This document shows, in pieces, positions 18,139 to 27,323 of a stretch of DNA of 33,545 nucleotides (positions are counted from its first letter, which is position 1; every line of letters begins with the position of its first letter). Origin of the DNA: Candidatus Cybelea palsarum (GTDB lineage: Bacteria; Vulcanimicrobiota; Vulcanimicrobiia; Vulcanimicrobiales; Vulcanimicrobiaceae); contig PMUK01000176.1 of the NCBI GenBank assembly GCA_003166915.1, forward strand, positions 128 to 33,672. The letters run 5' to 3'. The position numbers and the translations under genes were made by a program. Below the pieces are notes generated by a model, which did not search any database, had not been told where the DNA came from, and was given only the letters and a program-made list of their open reading frames with translations.

Positions 18139-18600
18139 TTAATCGAGCCTCATGTACGTCACTTGCGCGACGGCGACCAATACGCCGTCGTCGCCCCAAA
18201 AATTGGAGGTTACCGGAATTAGCGTGCGTCCCTGTTTGATCGCTTGCGCGAAGAGCCTAACGTCGCTGCGGGCGGGCGCGAGAAAGCGGATGTTCATGTC
18301 GGTCGTAGTGATGCGGCTCTGTGCGCCCCAGACGGTTAGGCTGACGATCGCGGCGGCGGAGTCGGCAGCAGTCATCAGCAAGCCGCCGTGAAATGAGTCG
18401 AAGATACCGTCAAACTGCTTATTGCGAGCGACGGTGCAGTCGAACCAGCCGACGCCGAAGCGTGGCTGCGAAAAATCTAGGCTCTTGAAGATCGGAATCG
18501 ACTGCATGCGGTCGCGAATCGCCTTTTCCATATCGGGTTCCAGCGGCGGCAGTTCGCCGGAATACGGCGCCATGAGCAAGCCGGGGGCGAGGGGATTCAC
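18139..18600 (-). CDS. PaaI-like hotdog-fold thioesterase
   Basis: 153 residues. The GTG at 18600 is chosen because it overlaps the stop of the G1 peptidase gene (GTGA) and removes a longer, poorly supported TTG start. Core hotdog motifs: FDSFHGGLLMTAADSAAAIV, TTDMNIRFLAPARSDVR, VTSNFWGDDG and VAVAQVTYM. These match the 4HBT/PaaI group, which hydrolyses acyl-CoA or aryl-CoA thioesters. The substrate is not deducible. Part of the MarR-controlled operon. Confidence 0.88.
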   Translation of the reverse strand: MNPLAPGLLMAPYSGELPPLEPDMEKAIRDRMQSIPIFKSLDFSQPRFGVGWFDCTVARNKQFDGIFDSFHGGLLMTAADSAAAIVSLTVWGAQSRITTTDMNIRFLAPARSDVRLFAQAIKQGRTLIPVTSNFWGDDGVLVAVAQVTYMRLD

Positions 18601-19730
18601 GATTGCCGGCAACGCTTGGGCTTCCGTTCGAGGTCGCCCTGTTGACCAGGCGTCGAGATAACGTAAGGCGTGCGGGAGAACGTAACGGCTTGCGGAGCGC
18701 TGATCTCCGCGCAGGCGAGCAGCGTGCCCTTTTTCGACAACGGAATGGCGTTCCAGGTCATCCAGTCGATGTTCGGCGTCGCGCCGTTGAAATGCCTCAT
18801 ATCGTAGACGACACCGTCTACATCGGTGGCGGCCACTTGAGTCATCGGAACGACGCCGAAATCGTCCAACGTGTTCGGTAGCGATTTCCGGTAGGCGCTA
18901 TAGAACGTGGCCTCGACGATCCACTCCGCCGTGTCGCCGGCGAGCCGGGCGGGGCGGCTGAACCGCGTGCCGCAATCGACGCAGCCGGAGTCGAACGTGC
19001 GCGACGGCAGGTAGAAGCCGGTCGTTTCGTTTACGAACCACAGCGTTGCCCGTTGCCAAGCGTGCGGGCCAGCTGTGTCCGCAGCGATACGGACGAAGAT
19101 CGTGTCGCCGGCGTGCAGCGGAAGATTGCGCGAATGCCTCGTGACGGCGACGTTCCTCGTGCCGGACCATTCGATCCAGAAGTAGGCAGAAGTTGGATAT
19201 TTCGCTGCTTTGCCATGGTAACAATGAACGTCCGACTCTGAGCCCGCCTGCAAAATGTCCGTCGAATCGTACGTATGCCACTTGCCGTCTCTTTTGGCGT
19301 GGGCCTTGAATGTCGCCATCCAGCCGTCGATTGCAATCCACAACGACGAGCCGTCGGTCTGTTCAAATCGGTTCGAGCAGTTGATCGTCGGGCGCGCCTT
19401 GGGGACCGTCCACTCGCCTTCGACCGCGCAAAAGCGATGTGCCGGAATCTGCAGCGGCTTCGCGCCGGGTGCAAAGAGCACTGGGCCCGCCCAATCCGGC
19501 TGATACACGCGCTGAATCGATCGCTGTGGCGACGCGATGAAGGTAACGTCGAGGGGCCGCTTGGCGTTGCGCATCGCGCGCAGCGACGCTTGATCGCGAT
19601 TCGGAAACGACCCCGCGCTGCAGGGTGCGGGCGTTGGAACGGCGGCTAGCGGCGGCGCGACCGCGTTTGTGTTGCAGGCTGCGATTGCCACGAGCCCGGC
19701 GTACGCGGCGGCGCTGCGCAGTTTTGCCAT
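18597..19730 (-). CDS. G1-family (eqolisin) glutamic endopeptidase-like lipoprotein
   Basis: 377 residues. Signal peptide ends VAIAAC (lipobox Cys19), so it is probably a membrane-anchored exported protein. The G1 fold is seen as GEWTVP (105-110), SSLWIAIDGW (128-137), DILQAGSE with Gln161, and GDTAEWIVEATF (265-275) with Glu269/Glu273. Gln161 and a Glu of AEWIVE match the Gln/Glu catalytic dyad of the family. A Cys-rich insert FDSGCVDCGTRF precedes the second motif. G1 peptidases are acid-active in fungi and are known in bacteria and archaea; activity here is unproven. It lies 23 bp after the MarR gene. Confidence 0.82.
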   Translation of the reverse strand: MAKLRSAAAYAGLVAIAACNTNAVAPPLAAVPTPAPCSAGSFPNRDQASLRAMRNAKRPLDVTFIASPQRSIQRVYQPDWAGPVLFAPGAKPLQIPAHRFCAVEGEWTVPKARPTINCSNRFEQTDGSSLWIAIDGWMATFKAHAKRDGKWHTYDSTDILQAGSESDVHCYHGKAAKYPTSAYFWIEWSGTRNVAVTRHSRNLPLHAGDTIFVRIAADTAGPHAWQRATLWFVNETTGFYLPSRTFDSGCVDCGTRFSRPARLAGDTAEWIVEATFYSAYRKSLPNTLDDFGVVPMTQVAATDVDGVVYDMRHFNGATPNIDWMTWNAIPLSKKGTLLACAEISAPQAVTFSRTPYVISTPGQQGDLERKPKRCRQS

Positions 19731-19753: not shown

Positions 19754-20182
19754 TTACCGAGCCTGCGGGAAGATCGCCGCCAGTGCTTTTCCGAGCAGAG
19801 CGATGTCCGCACGCTCGTTGCGCGAGAGCAAGCCGTCGATCAAGTCCAAACGGGCGGCGCGGGCTTTTTCCAGCGCCGCGGTACCCTTCGCCGTCGCTTC
19901 GACGATCGAGGAGCGCGCATCGTCGGGCGAAGGCGTGAGGCGGATGTAGCCGTCGCGCCGCAACGCCGCAACGATTCGAGTCATCGTCGGGGGAGCCACC
20001 TGCTCGGCATCGGCAAGTTGGCGGAGGTTGCGCGGGCCGCCGAAGACCAGCACCGAGAGCGCCGAGAGCTGCGCCGGGCCCATCGCGCTCCGGCGATCTG
20101 CCTGTCTCGCGTAACGGAGCACGTGGATCGCGGCGGAATGCAGTCGCTCCGCCACGCGCCGCCGCTCGCTACTGCGGGCCAT
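19754..20182 (-). CDS. MarR-family transcriptional regulator
   Basis: 142 residues from the ATG at 20182, which lies inside the VOC gene (14-bp overlap). Motifs: GPAQLSALSVLVFGGPRNL, then QLADAEQVAPPTMTRIVAAL (recognition helices) and GYIRLTPSPDDARSSIVEATAKG, the typical MarR wing. MarR proteins bind dyads and release DNA on binding phenolic or other small ligands. A perfect dyad overlaps the operon promoter (20542-20560) and is the likely operator, so the operon is probably self-repressed. Confidence 0.92.
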   Translation of the reverse strand: MARSSERRRVAERLHSAAIHVLRYARQADRRSAMGPAQLSALSVLVFGGPRNLRQLADAEQVAPPTMTRIVAALRRDGYIRLTPSPDDARSSIVEATAKGTAALEKARAARLDLIDGLLSRNERADIALLGKALAAIFPQAR

Positions 20183-20519
20183 AAAACGAGCAGTAGTGCC
20201 CGTCGGGATCTCTGAAGTTGACGGCCCAGTTCTCCGCATTGACCGGGCGCGGCTCGTTGATAAAGGCAATGCGATCCTTTAGGGCCGCGTGAGTGCGACT
20301 GACGCTCGCAACACCGAAAACGCATTCCTGCGTGGGGCCATCGGCGCCGGCAGAAGCAAGTTCGCCGCTCAGTGCGAGCGTCGTCTGCCCGGTCTCGAAA
20401 AACACGAAGTTATCGAAGCGGCCGCTCACGCGAAGTCCAAGGATCTCGCCGTAAAACGCAACCGCGCTGTCGAGGTCGCTCGTACCAAGCATCACAAAGG
20501 CCAGGGTTGGATCACGCAT
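20169..20519 (-). CDS. VOC-family (glyoxalase/bleomycin-resistance-like) protein
   Basis: 116 residues with one vicinal-oxygen-chelate module pair: LAFVMLGTSDLDSAVAFYGE, ILGLRV, FFETGQTTLAL and NFRDPDGHYCSFYG. GGAGG lies about 9 bases before the ATG. Family members act as glyoxalases, dioxygenases or binders of antibiotics; the metal set here is not clear enough to assign. First gene of the operon controlled by the dyad promoter. Confidence 0.9.
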   Translation of the reverse strand: MRDPTLAFVMLGTSDLDSAVAFYGEILGLRVSGRFDNFVFFETGQTTLALSGELASAGADGPTQECVFGVASVSRTHAALKDRIAFINEPRPVNAENWAVNFRDPDGHYCSFYGPQ

Positions 20520-20541: not shown

Positions 20542-20586
20542 TAGTTAGCTAAGCTAACTATATGGCGTCGACCCGGCACCTGTCAA
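20542..20586 (-). promoter_or_regulatory. Promoter with overlapping MarR-type operator
   Basis: On the minus strand TTGACA (20586-20581), 18 bases, TATAGT (20562-20557). A perfect inverted repeat TAGTTAGC-TAA-GCTAACTA covers 20542-20560 and so overlaps the -10 box and start point. A repressor bound there would block transcription of the VOC-MarR operon. The element lies within the last codons of the NiCoT gene, whose stop is at 20554-20556. Confidence 0.82.
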
Positions 20587-21606
20587 GCCGATCCGCACCG
20601 GGAGCTCGTCGTAGCGGCGAAGCTTGTAGATTGCGGTCGACACTCCCCAGCTCACCAGAAACACCCCAACGATGATGAAGCCGAGCGTTCCGAAGTTGCC
20701 ACTTAAGGCGTCGACCGCGTCCCAGATTCCGCCGCTCAATTGGAGCTGCGAGGCGACGACGCTCGCGGCTTCGATTGCGCCGATGATGAGCGCGACGAGC
20801 ACCGAAACGAGCGTGATGACCAAGTTGTAGTAGAGTTTTCGCATCGGTTTGATAAAGGCCCAGCCGTACGCACCGAGCATGAGGATGCCGTCGGTCGTAT
20901 CGAGCAGCGACATTCCGGCCGTAAAGAGCAACGGGAAAATGAGAATGTCATAAACCGGAAGCCCCTTGCCGGCCTCGACGGCCGCGATGCCGAGGAGCCC
21001 GACTTCGGTCGCCGTATCGAATCCCAGGCCGAAGAGCAGGCCGATCGGATACATCTTCCAACTGCTGTCGACCAGCTTGAGAAGCGGCCGGAAAAAGCGT
21101 CCGATGAGGCCGCGCCCATCGAGCATTTCGTCGACGCCTCGATCGTCATAGGATTCGCCCCGGCGCGCACCGCGAAACGCGCGAAAGATATCGATCAGCA
21201 CGATCAGGTTGATCGCTGCGACGAGCAGCAAGAAAGTGGCGGAGACGCTGGTGCCGACCAGCTCGCCGGTCCGTTGCAGTGCGGGCAGCCGGCCTTTGAC
21301 GATCGAGGCGGCCACGGCGATCCCCACCGTGAGCGCGATCACGACGGTGGAATGCCCGAGTGAGAAAAAGAAGCCGACTCCTACCGGCCGCTTGCGATCC
21401 TGCATCAGCCGTCGCGTGACGTTGTCGATCGCGGAGATGTGATCGGCATCAACGGCATGGCGCAGCCCGAACGTATAGGCGAGCAACGCCGTTCCCAACA
21501 GCAGCGGATGCGATGCAAAGAGCCAGAACGCCAAGCCCCACGCGGCAAGGTTGAGACCGATTAAGAAAGCGTAGAGGAGGTAGACCTTATTACGCAGTTC
21601 GGTCAT
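20554..21606 (-). CDS. NiCoT-family (HoxN/NixA-like) nickel/cobalt transporter
   Basis: 350 residues, about eight membrane helices. The ATG at 21606 overlaps the TPR gene stop (ATGA). The NiCoT signatures are all present: RHAVDADHISAIDNVTR in helix 2, FFSLGHSTVV, LFGLGFDTATEVGLL and LLFTAGMSLLDTTDG. The family imports Ni2+ or Co2+ with high affinity. Only the length and motifs are certain; Ni/Co preference is not. Last gene of the operon that begins with a NicO-type transporter, so the cluster has two unrelated Ni/Co permeases. Confidence 0.95.
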   Translation of the reverse strand: MTELRNKVYLLYAFLIGLNLAAWGLAFWLFASHPLLLGTALLAYTFGLRHAVDADHISAIDNVTRRLMQDRKRPVGVGFFFSLGHSTVVIALTVGIAVAASIVKGRLPALQRTGELVGTSVSATFLLLVAAINLIVLIDIFRAFRGARRGESYDDRGVDEMLDGRGLIGRFFRPLLKLVDSSWKMYPIGLLFGLGFDTATEVGLLGIAAVEAGKGLPVYDILIFPLLFTAGMSLLDTTDGILMLGAYGWAFIKPMRKLYYNLVITLVSVLVALIIGAIEAASVVASQLQLSGGIWDAVDALSGNFGTLGFIIVGVFLVSWGVSTAIYKLRRYDELPVRIGLTGAGSTPYS

Positions 21607-22916
21607 TTCGAAATCGCGACGAGAATCCGGCGTGCGTCGTCGGCGTAGACTGGGTGAAACTGCGCATCGACGGCAAGCGCTGCCGAAAGGCGGCGCCGCG
21701 CCTCGCCGGTGTGGCCCGTATGCAAGGCAATGACGCCGCAATGATACTGCAGCTCGGGATCCGCGGTATCGTAACGCGCCGCGCGCACTGCGTAGACGCG
21801 CGCTTCCTTCCAACGGCCCATCGCGGCCAAGACCCACGCCATCGTGTCGTCCGCATAGATTTCGTTTCCGCGTTTGCCGATGTCGGAGCGAGCCGCGGCT
21901 AAGGCGTCGTTCAAATGCTCGCGGTGTTCGGCGTAGTACATGGCCAAAAGCCGGTCGTTAATGCCCTGCACGTTGAAAAGCCGCTGCTCGGCCGCAATCA
22001 GCGCATCGGTCCTGCTCGCGCCTTCGTCGTCACCTAAAGCTCGCTGCGCGTCGGCCTCGTATCCTAACGCTTGCGGAAGCGGGTAGAGCTCGGCGCTGCG
22101 GGTGGCCGCTGTCAGCGCACGCTGCCAGTCGTGGTGCGCGCGGTAGAACTTCGCCGCAAAGAGCAGCGCCATCGCGTTGTCGGGATAGATTCGAAGCGCT
22201 TGGGTAAACTCCGAAGCGGCGGTCTCGCCGTCTCCGGCTTCAAATGCAAGCTGCGCGTCGCGAAGGTGGTACCAAGAGCGCGCGTAGGCAGATATGCTGA
22301 TCATCCGATCGACTTGTTGGGTCGCCTCGGCCATGAAGACTCGTGCCCCGGTGAGATTGCCGGTCACTTCGTCGTAGCGAGCGCGGATCGACACCCACGT
22401 CGGATCGACGTCGGGATCCGCCGGATGCGTCAAAATGTCCCGGGCCTCTTCGTAACGCCCCAGCTCCATGAGAATCGAGGCGCTCTGCGCGCTCGCATCG
22501 TCGTTTTTCGGATCGCCTTCCAAGGAGGAGCGTTCGGCTGCGAGCGCCGCGGGAAAGTGGTGAAAGACGATGTCGCTAGATGCAATGACGCTCAACGCTT
22601 GGGCGTTACTTTGAGGTTGCAGCGCCAGGGACCGCTCGGCCATTGCATGCGCGCGCGTAACGTCGTTGAGATCGCCCGTTTCGCGGAACCGCTGTAGATA
22701 TTCGCTCCCAAGCATTCGACGCGTGATCTGATCGCTGGGATCGCGTCGCGCCTGCTCCTCGTAAAAGGCGATGAGCCGGTCGCGCTGCCGGTAATCGGTG
22801 GATATCGGGGCCGGTGGCATTCCGGATGCCTGCGCTCGATGCGAGGCAAACCACGGCCATGCTGCCCCAAGGGCGATCGCCGCCAAAAAGGCGACGATCG
22901 CCGCCGGCGTCTTCAC
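21603..22916 (-). CDS. Exported/anchored TPR-repeat protein
   Basis: 437 residues. The GTG at 22916 follows the DUF4331-type lipoprotein stop by one base. An N-terminal membrane segment (FLAAIALGAAWPWF) leads to an extracytoplasmic alpha-helical domain with several tetratricopeptide repeats, for example ALSVIASSDIVFHHFPAAL, AMALLFAAKFYRAHHDWQRA and PELQYHCGVIALHTGHTGEA. It probably acts as a scaffold between envelope proteins. No catalytic motif. Coupled to the NiCoT gene downstream. Confidence 0.88.
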   Translation of the reverse strand: MKTPAAIVAFLAAIALGAAWPWFASHRAQASGMPPAPISTDYRQRDRLIAFYEEQARRDPSDQITRRMLGSEYLQRFRETGDLNDVTRAHAMAERSLALQPQSNAQALSVIASSDIVFHHFPAALAAERSSLEGDPKNDDASAQSASILMELGRYEEARDILTHPADPDVDPTWVSIRARYDEVTGNLTGARVFMAEATQQVDRMISISAYARSWYHLRDAQLAFEAGDGETAASEFTQALRIYPDNAMALLFAAKFYRAHHDWQRALTAATRSAELYPLPQALGYEADAQRALGDDEGASRTDALIAAEQRLFNVQGINDRLLAMYYAEHREHLNDALAAARSDIGKRGNEIYADDTMAWVLAAMGRWKEARVYAVRAARYDTADPELQYHCGVIALHTGHTGEARRRLSAALAVDAQFHPVYADDARRILVAISK

Positions 22917-22917
22917 G

Positions 22918-23508
22918 TTAGAGAGGCGCCTGGATGTACGGGAACGTCTTCGTGTTGGATTTATCGTAAGACACGTTGTCGAGGGCGAGACAGGGCGCTT
23001 CCTTCTTATCGTCGGGAATCAGGCCGAGAGCCGAGAGGGTATTGCCGAAAATTGCGCCGAGCGAGATGTCTATGACGTCGTCGTCAAGCGCGCGGCCGCC
23101 CCACTTGCTGCCGGTCGCGCCACCCGTCTCGTAGCCGAGATAGGACGCCGTGGTAACATCTTGCGAAAGATCGGCCTTCATTACGTTGGGATAGAGGATG
23201 GCTTGCAGCGTTTCGGCGTTTTGCTTGCTGCGGAACATCAGCGTGAACGACTTGATCTGCGCTTGCAGAACGGGATCGGCGTACGGTTCAGCGTGGTTGG
23301 TCTTGTTATGATCTTCGAAGAGTTCGAAGGCTTCTTTGACGGCCGGCCGAGAGAGCAGTTCGATCTGCTTATACACGGTCGCTCCCGCGATCGGGGTTGT
23401 GCCGGCGCCTGCCTGCGGGTTGAAGACGCCCGCGCCCGAACTGCAGCCACCGATAATTGCTCCAGCGAGGATCGTAGCAAGAAGCGCGAGTTTATACCTT
23501 GATGTCAT
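22918..23508 (-). CDS. DUF4331-related lipoprotein (C-terminal-module-like)
   Basis: 196 residues from the ATG at 23508, with AGGGGA about 8 bases upstream. Signal peptide ends IIGGC (Cys22). The mature region contains EAFELFEDHNKTNHAEPYAD and later GGRALDDDVIDISLGAIFGN, which resembles the C-terminal part of DUF4331 proteins. It lies 13 bp after the gene for the N-terminal-type DUF4331 protein, suggesting that what is one protein elsewhere is split into two here. Function unknown. Confidence 0.72.
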   Translation of the reverse strand: MTSRYKLALLATILAGAIIGGCSSGAGVFNPQAGAGTTPIAGATVYKQIELLSRPAVKEAFELFEDHNKTNHAEPYADPVLQAQIKSFTLMFRSKQNAETLQAILYPNVMKADLSQDVTTASYLGYETGGATGSKWGGRALDDDVIDISLGAIFGNTLSALGLIPDDKKEAPCLALDNVSYDKSNTKTFPYIQAPL

Positions 23509-23521
23509 GTTGCTGTTCCCC

Positions 23522-24337
23522 TTACTCTGATTTGCCTGGTGAGGCAGTGGTGGCCCAAAGGCCGATGACGCCTGGCGATCCACTCGCCGGAGCGAGCAGC
23601 TTCTTGGGCATCTCGATGACGATCGAGAGCACGTCGTAGGGCGCTAAGAAATCCTTCGGCTTTGCAATCTTGCAGCCGTTGGAGCCGGCGGTTCCATAGC
23701 TAACGCCATTGAGGACGATCTCTTGCGACCGCGAAGCGAAGCGAAACGAGGTCGCGGTAGCCGGGGGAGTATGCGGGTGGTTCATGTAGTTGCGATCGGG
23801 TAGGATCTTAAAAAACTGCGCCAAGTCGAAGAAGAACGGATCGCGCCGGGGGCCCACGAAGACCTTAATATTGTCCTTAAGCGACGCGACTTTTCCGAAC
23901 GTGAACGTCCCGGTCTTACCAATGAGCGTATTGGACGTTCCGACTTCGTTAGGTTTGCCAGGTCCGTAGAGCGTGATGTTTTGTCCTGTTCCGGCGGAAT
24001 CGGCCGTGAACTGGATCACGGTATTCTCGGTAAATGAACCGGATGCCACGCCGGTGTTAGCGATCTTAAACTGATAAAGCAGGCTGGGATCGAGTGCGAT
24101 CCCGCCGTACATGCCGCTCGGAATGAGCGGACGCACGTTCATAACTAACGCGACCTTCGAGGCGTCGTGCGGATCGGGGAACGCGAAGACATCGGTAATG
24201 TCCGCGAGTGGGTTGGCGACGACGGTCGGTGAGTCTTGGTGGTCGGATCCCCGGGCGGCTCTAACTGAGTAGAGCGAAACCGAGAAGGCGAGCAAAAAAA
24301 CCACCGCCATCGTTACGATGGGTCGAAGCAGTTTCAT
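23522..24337 (-). CDS. Secreted DUF4331 protein
   Basis: 271 residues. Signal peptide to about residue 28 (VFLLAFSVSLYSVRAARG). The mature N-terminus GSDHQDSPTVVANPLADITD, then VFAFPDPHD is the hallmark of DUF4331, whose His/Asp pattern suggests metal contact, though none has been shown. Two further motifs: FFDLAQFFKILP and DFLAPYDVLSIVIEMPK. The ATG overlaps the NicO-gene stop (ATGA). Function of the family is unknown; the operon of metal transporters hints at metal handling (inference). Confidence 0.88.
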   Translation of the reverse strand: MKLLRPIVTMAVVFLLAFSVSLYSVRAARGSDHQDSPTVVANPLADITDVFAFPDPHDASKVALVMNVRPLIPSGMYGGIALDPSLLYQFKIANTGVASGSFTENTVIQFTADSAGTGQNITLYGPGKPNEVGTSNTLIGKTGTFTFGKVASLKDNIKVFVGPRRDPFFFDLAQFFKILPDRNYMNHPHTPPATATSFRFASRSQEIVLNGVSYGTAGSNGCKIAKPKDFLAPYDVLSIVIEMPKKLLAPASGSPGVIGLWATTASPGKSE

Positions 24338-25848
24338 ACGGGCTCCTTTATGGCCAGTGGGTGGTGGTGTGTGGAACCTGTCGAGAGAAGCGACGGGATA
24401 ATGGCGAATGCAGCGATGCTGCAGAGCGTGAGCGCAATCACGCCGAGGCTGGGCACGCCGGCGCCTTGATCGGCGAGGCCCTGGGCGAGCATGATCGCGC
24501 CGATGGTCGAGATGACGCCCGAACTAACGAACGGCGCGATGCGCGTAAGGCGCGCGAAGGACGACCTTCGTTGCAGCCATGCGGCACCGTGAACGACGGC
24601 GAGGCCCAGACCAGTCAGAATCGTCGCTAAGCCAAGGCTGAAAACGACGATGAGAAATAATCCGTAACCGACTCGGTGCAGGTGCAGGGCGGCGAGCAGC
24701 ACGACGATTGCCGCCGGACACGGCGCAATGCCGCCGCTCATTGCTGCGATCACGGCGCTCGGGAAATGGAGTGGTGCGCCGCCCGGGATTGCGTGCGCGT
24801 GTTCGTGATCGTCGTGATCGTTGTGATCGTGGTCTTTGTGGTGATGGTGGTGATGCTCGTGCGCGTGTCTCGCGCGCCTGACGGCTGCCGACAGCGTACG
24901 CGCGCCGATGACGGCAACGGCCGCGCCGGAGAGCAGCGTGATCCACGTGAAGAGGCTCTCCGTGGCGAACCCGGCAGCAAAGAAGAGTAACGCTCCGAGC
25001 AAGAGCACGGCGATGGTATGCGCGAAGGTCAGTGCGGCCGCCAAAATCCCCGCTTGTTTGAACGTTGCTCGAGCCCCCACGAGCGTAAAGGCGAGCAACG
25101 CTTTGCCGTGGCCCGGTTCGAGGCCGTGGAGCGCTCCGAGGCCAAACGCGGCGAGGATCGTAAGAAAAATCAAGAGCGGCGTCTGCGTGCCGCGCGCGAA
25201 GAGATCGGACAGAGCGGACGACCGCACTATCGAACTCACTCCCCAGGAGGCCGCATCGTCACCAGTAACGCGCGCGTCCGCGACGCGTCCGTTGACGAGG
25301 TCGAACGTCGCGACGTCGTTGTGACGGGGTGAGCCGATCAAGGCGCTGGGATACGAGCGGAGTTCGTCCGTCGGCTCCGACAAGCCGGGCAACACGATGT
25401 CCTTCCAACCAATTCGTCGATCGGCGTAGACGAGGTCGCGGACGGTTATTGTTGACTTTAAAGGCGCCGAGACGATGAAGTCGCCGGTCCAATACAAGAT
25501 GGGAAGGCCCCCGGCACCCGGACGCGTGCGGGACGCTACACGCTCGAGGTGCATCGGAAGCGCGGCGCCGCCAGCCTCGATGGAAAGGCCGTTGCCCACG
25601 CGCAGCGCCTCTTCACCGTCCCAGTCGCGCTGCTGCTGCGGCGTCCACGAGCCCGTCGCATGCATGATTTGAAACGTCGGAATCTCCGCAATATCTAAAA
25701 CGTAGTGGATGCGCAGGTCTCCGCGCTGCGGACGAATCTCGGCGAGGTGATTGATCGTGAAGTTTCCGAGCGGATGCGCTGAGGCGCCGCCGGCGGCGGC
25801 AAGGAAAAAGAAAGCACTCCAAGCACCCAAAGCCGCTGACCGCGTCAT
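24334..25848 (-). CDS. NicO/RcnA-like nickel/cobalt transporter with exodomain and His-rich loop
   Basis: 504 residues. Signal peptide to about 24, then HPLGNFTINHLAEI at the start of an about 200-residue extracytoplasmic beta domain (to about 215), as in NicO proteins of other phyla. About six membrane helices follow. Signatures: GALHGLEPGHGKALL (239-252) and SGGIAPCPAAIVVLLAAL. A cytoplasmic or loop segment at 328-352 has His-rich runs (AHEHHHHHHKDHDHNDHDDH), typical of RcnA-like efflux or metal-sensing permeases. It could be an exporter or importer of Ni/Co; the sequence does not decide. First gene of the coupled five-gene operon. Confidence 0.92.
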   Translation of the reverse strand: MTRSAALGAWSAFFFLAAAGGASAHPLGNFTINHLAEIRPQRGDLRIHYVLDIAEIPTFQIMHATGSWTPQQQRDWDGEEALRVGNGLSIEAGGAALPMHLERVASRTRPGAGGLPILYWTGDFIVSAPLKSTITVRDLVYADRRIGWKDIVLPGLSEPTDELRSYPSALIGSPRHNDVATFDLVNGRVADARVTGDDAASWGVSSIVRSSALSDLFARGTQTPLLIFLTILAAFGLGALHGLEPGHGKALLAFTLVGARATFKQAGILAAALTFAHTIAVLLLGALLFFAAGFATESLFTWITLLSGAAVAVIGARTLSAAVRRARHAHEHHHHHHKDHDHNDHDDHEHAHAIPGGAPLHFPSAVIAAMSGGIAPCPAAIVVLLAALHLHRVGYGLFLIVVFSLGLATILTGLGLAVVHGAAWLQRRSSFARLTRIAPFVSSGVISTIGAIMLAQGLADQGAGVPSLGVIALTLCSIAAFAIIPSLLSTGSTHHHPLAIKEPV

Positions 25849-26000: not shown

Positions 26001-27323
26001 ATGGATGTCGTCGGCGAAGAGCAAGCCGAGCAATTGATAGCGCGTTGCGGCCTTACTGAGGCGGCGGCGCGACTCGCCGCGGCTAGCTACGAAGGCGGCG
26101 ATGCCCAGGGCTCGCGCAGGCGCCTCTGCGCTGGAGTCTATGCGCTGATGGGCGACGACCGAAATCTCGCGGCAGTGGTCGCGCCGCAGTTGCTCGCGTC
26201 TCGCACGGCCGTCGCCGTGGCCTCGCACTTCGAATCGCTCGGAGGCCAACCCGCTTCGCACGACTATCTAACCGGCGCGGTCACGCTCTCGTGGGTAACG
26301 GATGCAGCAGGAACCTACGAGCTCTTCCGGAGCGCGCACGATCGCGCGATTGCCGAGAAACGCTTTCATTTCGCCGTAGGCGCGCGCGAACGGTTGGCGC
26401 ACCACGCCATCCTCTTCGGCGACGTCGAGATTGCGCGAAATGCGCTTGAAGACGCCGTGCGTCTCGCGTCGCTTCACCGTCTTTCGGAATGGTTTTTGCG
26501 CAGTGCGGCTGCGGCCGCGCGTTTGGCACTCGACGTCGGCGATTCCGACCGCGCCGCACAGTTAATTGAACGTGCGCAGATGCACGCGCGCACCCCCGAA
26601 GCGATTGCTTTATTGGCGCCCGTCGGCGCCGCGCTGGCGATCGCCGCCGGAGACGATGAGGCCGCGGCTGCATGGAGCTCCCCGGAGATCCTCGACACGG
26701 CGCTGGGCTCGCAGGACCTGGAAAGCGCGATCGCGGCGACCATTGCGCTGCTCTGCGCGCGCGCGTTGGTTCCCGGCTCCCCACTGGCGATTGCGCTGCG
26801 ACGGGCCTTGCTGCGGGCGAGCGGGACAACGTACGCCGTCGAGCTTTTCTCGCTGGCGGCGCGATACGGTGATATCGAAGAGGCCCGGCTTGGCGCGGAT
26901 ACGCTAAATGCTCTGGTCGCTCCCAATCGCAAGTACTGCAAAGCGCATGCGCTCCTTGCCCGGGCGCACCTGCTCTTTCGAGGCGGCGAGCGCGCGGCAT
27001 GGATCGACCATGCCGGCGACGCGGCACGAGCCTTTAATGCGATGGGGATGCGACGCTGGATGAATGAAGCGATGCTTCTGCTCGTCTGGCAAGAAAACGA
27101 AAGCTTTCCACGACGCCGTGGGCGTCCGATGGGTTCGGCCCTGACCGGACGCGAGCAGCAGGTCGCACATCTTATTCGGCGCGGGGCTCGTAATCGCGAG
27201 GTAGCCGCGGCGTTGCAAATCAGCGAGCATACCGTCGAACGGCACGTAAGTTCAATCCTGGGGCGCCTCGGCCTGCGTTCGCGGTGGCAAATTGCCGACC
27301 CGAAGAACGCTTCCGAACATTAA
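26001..27323 (+). CDS. LuxR-type regulator with TPR-like helical N-terminus
   Basis: 440 residues. The C-terminal 60 residues form a LuxR helix-turn-helix: LTGREQQVAHLIRRGARN, then EVAAALQISEHTVERHVSSIL. The preceding about 370 residues are Ala/Leu-rich helical repeats similar to the solenoid of MalT/LAL regulators, but no P-loop ATPase is present. It is divergent from the NicO operon (152 bp between starts) and may regulate it; no matching operator was found by eye. Confidence 0.88.
   Translation: MDVVGEEQAEQLIARCGLTEAAARLAAASYEGGDAQGSRRRLCAGVYALMGDDRNLAAVVAPQLLASRTAVAVASHFESLGGQPASHDYLTGAVTLSWVTDAAGTYELFRSAHDRAIAEKRFHFAVGARERLAHHAILFGDVEIARNALEDAVRLASLHRLSEWFLRSAAAAARLALDVGDSDRAAQLIERAQMHARTPEAIALLAPVGAALAIAAGDDEAAAAWSSPEILDTALGSQDLESAIAATIALLCARALVPGSPLAIALRRALLRASGTTYAVELFSLAARYGDIEEARLGADTLNALVAPNRKYCKAHALLARAHLLFRGGERAAWIDHAGDAARAFNAMGMRRWMNEAMLLLVWQENESFPRRRGRPMGSALTGREQQVAHLIRRGARNREVAAALQISEHTVERHVSSILGRLGLRSRWQIADPKNASEH

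Follow-up and report, generated by a model that had tools for sequence, protein, structure and literature searches.

A conserved gene module linking an anglerase-like NicO permease, DUF4331 proteins, a TPR protein and a second permease in Eremiobacterota and other phyla

What does a bacterium do with an operon in which two permeases of the nickel/cobalt kind enclose three exported proteins of unassigned role? The question is raised by a 33,545-nucleotide stretch of contig PMUK01000176.1 (the window) from Candidatus Cybelea palsarum, a soil-dwelling member of Eremiobacterota, a phylum about which little is known. The nearest named relatives of this genome, Candidatus Eremiobacterota metagenome-assembled genomes (MAGs), encode a NicO permease 91% identical to the one studied here. 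The operon occupies positions 25848-20554 of the minus strand and encodes, in order, NicO, the N-terminal and C-terminal halves of a DUF4331 domain, a TPR protein, and a NiCoT permease. All five genes are intact and lie where the original prediction, made from the sequence without database searches, had placed them, with the overlaps and gaps it described. ATGA overlaps of 4 bp join NicO to the DUF4331 N-terminal half and the TPR gene to NiCoT, and gaps of 13 bp and 1 bp separate the N-terminal half from the lipoprotein and the lipoprotein from the TPR gene. Judging by this intergene spacing, the five genes probably form a single transcript. Compared with five relatives, every gene is under purifying selection, with a ratio of nonsynonymous to synonymous divergence of 0.08-0.21 (NicO, 0.14-0.21; N-terminal half, 0.08-0.15; C-terminal half, 0.10-0.15; TPR, 0.13-0.20; NiCoT, 0.08-0.17). 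The original claim that nickel and cobalt enzyme genes are absent also held for those window proteins that were scanned. Two other parts of the prediction had to be revised: the permeases, described as unrelated, both match PF03824, which makes them distant relatives within a single Pfam family, and the supposed two separate DUF4331 proteins are complementary halves of one PF14224 domain.

The grouping of these families is not peculiar to the window. When 84,980 species genomes were scanned with a NicO alignment, 338 relatives emerged. The best 79 loci were examined, and since these are the top-ranked ones, they allow no statement on more distant NicO proteins. NicO, both DUF4331 halves, and the TPR protein occur together across Eremiobacterota, and the gene order is fixed within the window's genus. 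Outside Eremiobacterota (taken as the 39 loci from L117 on), where linkage was assessed solely by starting from NicO, DUF4331 is present at 28/39 loci and the same TPR family at 36/39; of the 11 loci lacking DUF4331, 8 are truncated at a contig end. These loci are labelled Acidobacteriota, Chloroflexota, Ignavibacteriota, Deltaproteobacteria, Rokubacteria, Binatota, Abditibacteriota, Cyanobacteriota, Actinomycetota, and Nevskia, about ten other phyla in all, although single labels may be wrong because many of the genomes are MAGs. In annotated Nostoc and Streptomyces plasmids, DUF4331, TPR, and permease genes adjoin. Chance, or mere shared ancestry among close relatives, would fit the fixed order inside the window's genus, but it is refuted by the many phyla carrying the module, among which the order is shuffled and parts are split, fused, or replaced; we regard it as extremely improbable. 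The original prediction had named an absence of conserved linkage in other genomes as grounds for its refutation, and the gene-neighborhood search found the linkage conserved. The module is thus real and conserved, and combined literature searches found no paper describing the linkage. Separately, two Rhodospirillales-labelled MAGs (L098 and L100) carry a NicO that falls inside the Eremiobacterota clade, and their labels are probably wrong.

The DUF4331 domain of the window is made in two exported pieces. The halves score 103.5 bits (N-terminal) and 54.6 bits (C-terminal) against PF14224 (cut-off, 27), and each has its own export signal: a signal sequence in the former and a lipobox in the latter, the lipobox being present in 50/50 C-terminal halves tested. 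The split form was found throughout Eremiobacterota, where some genomes also carry full-length copies elsewhere, and in Abditibacterium (L140). A split gene in a Deltaproteobacteria MAG (L122) looks like a frameshift and was left out of the split count. AlphaFold2 predicts a full-length cyanobacterial DUF4331 to be a single compact protein (predicted template modeling score, 0.90), and the split point lies near the switch from the mainly beta to the mainly helical part of this homolog's model. A Foldseek search of the PDB with the DUF4331 model gave no match at E <= 0.001; the weak matches, with template modeling (TM) scores by query length of at most about 0.20, were dismissed as chance. Asp, Arg, and His positions of DUF4331 are strongly conserved. 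One conserved His lies at mature position 3 if cleavage follows the (-3,-1) rule, a fit found in 61/64 DUF4331 proteins and in no more than 29/64 at other offsets. Gly is common at -1 in Eremiobacterota and makes a weaker site, so the X-X-His mature N-terminus stays a prediction. NH2-X-X-His is the amino-terminal copper- and nickel-binding (ATCUN) motif, a binding site for Cu2+ and Ni2+. Two further observations concern DUF4331 in related sequences. A second, single-chain DUF4331-like gene is present in the same genome (L001; G000:C187:15178-15867); the 3.7 kb read around it shows neither NicO nor TPR, and a signal sequence is not obvious. In addition, the synonymous divergence of the N-terminal half is 0.88 and 0.39 from L077 and L078, compared with 0.23 and 0.17 for NicO in the same pairs, an excess that could reflect recombination.

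NicO carries a large exported domain (the exodomain) ahead of its membrane domain, and a cleavage site that would leave His as the first mature residue conforms to the (-3,-1) rule in 83/83 NicO proteins. Ala occupies position -1 of this site in 82/83, and the other offsets tested fit at most 44. The exodomain residues H1, D28, E31, and W124 are invariant among 62 sequences. Of all PDB entries, the one that the AlphaFold2 model of the exodomain (mean predicted local distance difference test score, 86.5) matches best is 9gce, the copper-bound Ang-1 domain of a HupE/UreJ-2 protein (Foldseek; E value, 1.5e-6; probability, 1.00; TM scores, 0.40/0.47), with the zinc-binding protein ZrgA next. As modeled, the exodomain shares with Ang-1 a strand-helices-strand insertion (the beta2-helices-beta3 layout) and is an immunoglobulin-like beta-sandwich of the kind that defines the Ang-1 fold, though the TM scores reach only 0.40-0.47. 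PDB sequence searches with NicO, the exodomain, an exodomain profile, and DUF4331 returned no significant match. Because a match at the sequence level is lacking, common descent of the exodomain and Ang-1 is not established. Distant operons in genomes of family f14 (L038 and L041) combine DUF4331 halves with a NicO bearing a different exodomain, which also seems to start with His after Ala (AHETGR and AHESGR).

Ang-1 has a mono-histidine brace and the beta2-helices-beta3 layout and binds copper (Kd, 74 nM) and nickel (Kd, 220 nM) by way of its N-terminal His; anglerase domains have been proposed to capture ions for delivery to the permease they are attached to (PMC12537917). The NicO exodomain resembles Ang-1 and Ang-2 as an exported beta-sandwich with a predicted His start, fused to a permease of the nickel-transporter kind. 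The anglerase permease, however, is HupE/UreJ-2 (PF13795), a family absent from NicO in a Pfam scan that returned the NicO/RcnA-like PF03824 instead. The operon described here also adds DUF4331, TPR, and a second permease, whereas the gene neighbors of Ang-1 are DUF4198, indigoidine-like, and PfkB proteins (PMC12537917). NicO, DUF4331, and TPR are unmentioned in the main text of that paper. Because the permease family differs, we do not file the module as an anglerase; by analogy, it may work like an anglerase-permease system.

The second permease bears on which metal such a system would handle. The NiCoT protein of the window scores 396.7 bits against TIGR00802 (cut-off, 333.05) and 336 bits against PF03824, and its motifs HAVDADH, GHSTVV, and LGFDTATE include the HAxDADH and DTATE signatures of a canonical member of the HoxN/NixA/NicT family. 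Among 83 distinct NicO loci, the second permease is a separate gene in 43, is fused to the NicO C-terminus in 14 (Acidobacteriota, Ignavibacteria, and one Nevskia), and was not found in 26. Whereas the window clade has canonical NiCoT, most other Eremiobacterota have at the same place a shorter permease with the motif HGADPDH and about 31% identity to NiCoT, and HxTDPDH is the other motif variant of the shorter permease in relatives. By motif resemblance, the HGADPDH and HATDPDH permeases may be kin of UreH. UreH nickel transporters are likewise small secondary transporters, but their genes adjoin nickel-enzyme genes (PMC2667541), which the operon does not. On the NicO tree, counting only rows with an HGADPDH permease or canonical NiCoT, the switch between the two needs two changes, to NiCoT in the window clade and again in L107; canonical NiCoT therefore appears to have taken the second-permease place in two separate events. 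Since NiCoT members are experimentally known nickel/cobalt importers (PMC2667541), their occurrence at this place supports nickel or cobalt as the metal handled there. Only three PF03824 matches occur in the genome of the window (NicO and NiCoT of the operon plus another NiCoT, on contig C111), and thus no HGADPDH permease was found in it. The second NiCoT (L164; G000:C111) has a relative, L165 (G037:C3), that lies upstream of a NiFe-hydrogenase gene; this gene is not adjacent to the C111 NiCoT in G000.

The same architecture could serve copper instead of nickel or cobalt. Both X-X-His and N-terminal His motifs are strong Cu2+ binders. Among the anglerases, Ang-1 is tighter for copper than for nickel and Ang-2 is stabilized most by copper (PMC12537917). 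The two arrivals of a canonical NiCoT above the TIGR00802 cut-off argue against copper, as does the H-x-x-D-[AP]-D-H type motif that the partner permeases retain, and we consider copper unlikely.

Taken together, we see about an even chance that the five genes encode a single system that handles a transition metal in the envelope, with Ni2+/Co2+ the likeliest ion and Cu2+ a possible one. This proposal builds on the genes present and their conserved linkage, the division of DUF4331 into two proteins, the predicted N-termini, the fold match, and the replacement or fusion of the second permease; from these we infer the metal, an uptake direction, roles for DUF4331 and TPR, and any physical complex. 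The two-piece exported DUF4331, with its X-X-His N-terminus and lipid-anchored C-terminal half, would bind the ion outside the inner membrane, while the membrane-anchored TPR protein would keep the parts together. The NicO exodomain may then take the ion through its N-terminal His, as anglerases are proposed to do, and pass it to the NicO membrane domain, with the second permease (NiCoT here) acting as a putative partner channel of NicO. Metal capture or homeostasis in the envelope, as suggested in the original prediction, thereby gains independent support from the linkage in many phyla, the anglerase-matching exodomain, the N-terminal His and X-X-His, and the replacement of the permease by a nickel/cobalt importer; the metal identity and the direction of transport are still to be read as inferred.

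Several results weigh against this proposal. The NicO membrane domain, which matches PF03824 in two stretches (1.3e-7, 32 bits), is by sequence nearest to the exporter RcnA: the best NCBIfam model is PRK10019 (118.3 bits; cut-off, 195). The exodomain and Ang-1 align at TM scores of 0.40-0.47 with undetectable sequence similarity, the cleavage sites come from the (-3,-1) sequence rule rather than from a trained predictor or experiment, and about one-third of the loci, several of them at contig ends, have no second permease found. An Rfam scan of the window returned no riboswitch or other RNA, and hence no metal-sensing riboswitch at threshold. Finally, NiFe-hydrogenase, urease, CobN, CbiC, LarA, and ARD were undetected in the genome of the window, which is 94.8% complete. 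Four B12-binding domains were found there; in the nickel superoxide dismutase search, the controls were silent. Across the phylum, DUF4331 is present in 20/33 genomes with hydrogenase (p 0.07) and in 14/15 with urease (p 1e-4), both uncorrected for relatedness, and for that reason the urease association was given no weight.

With the enzymes listed above undetected in the genome, the main rival is that the operon supplies metal to an exported DUF4331 client, DUF4331 then being an enzyme or structural protein that depends on metal: NiCoT would import the ion, NicO would export it to the envelope, and the TPR protein would help insertion. The nearness of NicO to RcnA fits such a route, as do the enzyme families undetected in the genome (B12-binding proteins excepted) and a DUF4331 with conserved Asp, Arg, and His and a compact model lacking a PDB match. 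There is also a precedent in cable bacteria, where RcnA, an RcnA-like permease with a His-rich loop as here, is proposed to move nickel to the periplasm for a periplasmic nickel cofactor, although the main text mentions no TPR or DUF partner (PMC11247825). An anglerase-like exodomain, by contrast, suggests capture from outside, for which an exporter has no obvious need, and DUF4331 also occurs away from NicO, e.g., at L067 and L073. We judge metal supply to be rather unlikely.

In detoxification, NicO would export excess nickel or cobalt, with DUF4331 and TPR as metal binders in the envelope. NicO resembles RcnA and has a His-rich loop in common with it, in line with efflux. NicO falls below the RcnA family cut-off and carries a large exodomain, which RcnA itself lacks. 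A canonical importer in the same operon and fusions to a permease of the same superfamily misfit simple efflux, and detoxification seems improbable.

Returning to the envelope system, its broadest form is offered tentatively and is short of an even prospect: an undescribed, widespread metal relay in which a one- or two-piece DUF4331 carrier and a TPR scaffold would serve an anglerase-type permease, paired with or fused to another, for nickel, cobalt, or copper, in hosts that do not necessarily possess the classical nickel enzymes. It provides a first concrete functional hypothesis for DUF4331, a many-phyla family unnamed in the open-access literature searched, and carries the anglerase idea of 2025 over to a further permease family, with partner proteins added. 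Given the two permease swaps, the fusions, and the conserved residues at the N-termini, it can be tested directly in culturable hosts such as Granulicella, Nostoc, or Streptomyces.

Table 1. Positions of the operon genes, their predicted elements, and the divergent regulator in the window
Feature	Position	Strand	Basis or remarks
NicO permease, 504 aa	24334..25848	-	Signal peptide, exodomain, and RcnA-like membrane domain
Anglerase-like exodomain, NicO residues 25-232	25153..25776	-	AlphaFold2 and Foldseek
His-rich loop between NicO membrane segments, residues 328-352	24793..24867	-	Read from sequence; relatives have one too
DUF4331 N-terminal half, secreted	23522..24337	-	PF14224 positions 1-~240
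Ser-Asp-His at predicted mature DUF4331 N-terminus (X-X-His, ATCUN-like)	24239..24247	-	(-3,-1) rule
DUF4331 C-terminal half, lipoprotein	22918..23508	-	PF14224 positions 251-421
Lipobox Ile-Gly-Gly-Cys of C-terminal half	23443..23454	-	Sequence
TPR protein, 437 aa, GTG start	21603..22916	-	N-terminal membrane anchor; Pfam TPR_19 2.8e-18
Canonical NiCoT permease, 350 aa	20554..21606	-	PF03824 1.7e-100; TIGR00802 397 bits
LuxR regulator, divergent from operon	26001-27323	Opposite to operon	Outside the conserved unit

The divergent LuxR gene pointed out in the original prediction is present, but apart from this genome only its closest relatives have it next to the operon. It was therefore placed outside the conserved unit and rejected as a dedicated operon regulator. 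Among 110 neighboring genes outside Eremiobacterota, there were nine matches to extracytoplasmic function (ECF)-type sigma factors and five to the RskA anti-sigma domain. From gene positions, the Chloroflexota operons L124, L128, L129, L130, and L137 seem to be preceded by ECF sigma and RskA-type anti-sigma genes. On the other side of the operon, 34 bp past its end, the minus strand carries glyoxalase-family and MarR-family genes (19754-20519). A predicted Peptidase_A4 (glutamic peptidase) protein is encoded on the same strand at 18597-19730 (PF01828, 1.3e-17), and its gene adjoins a thioesterase-like gene.

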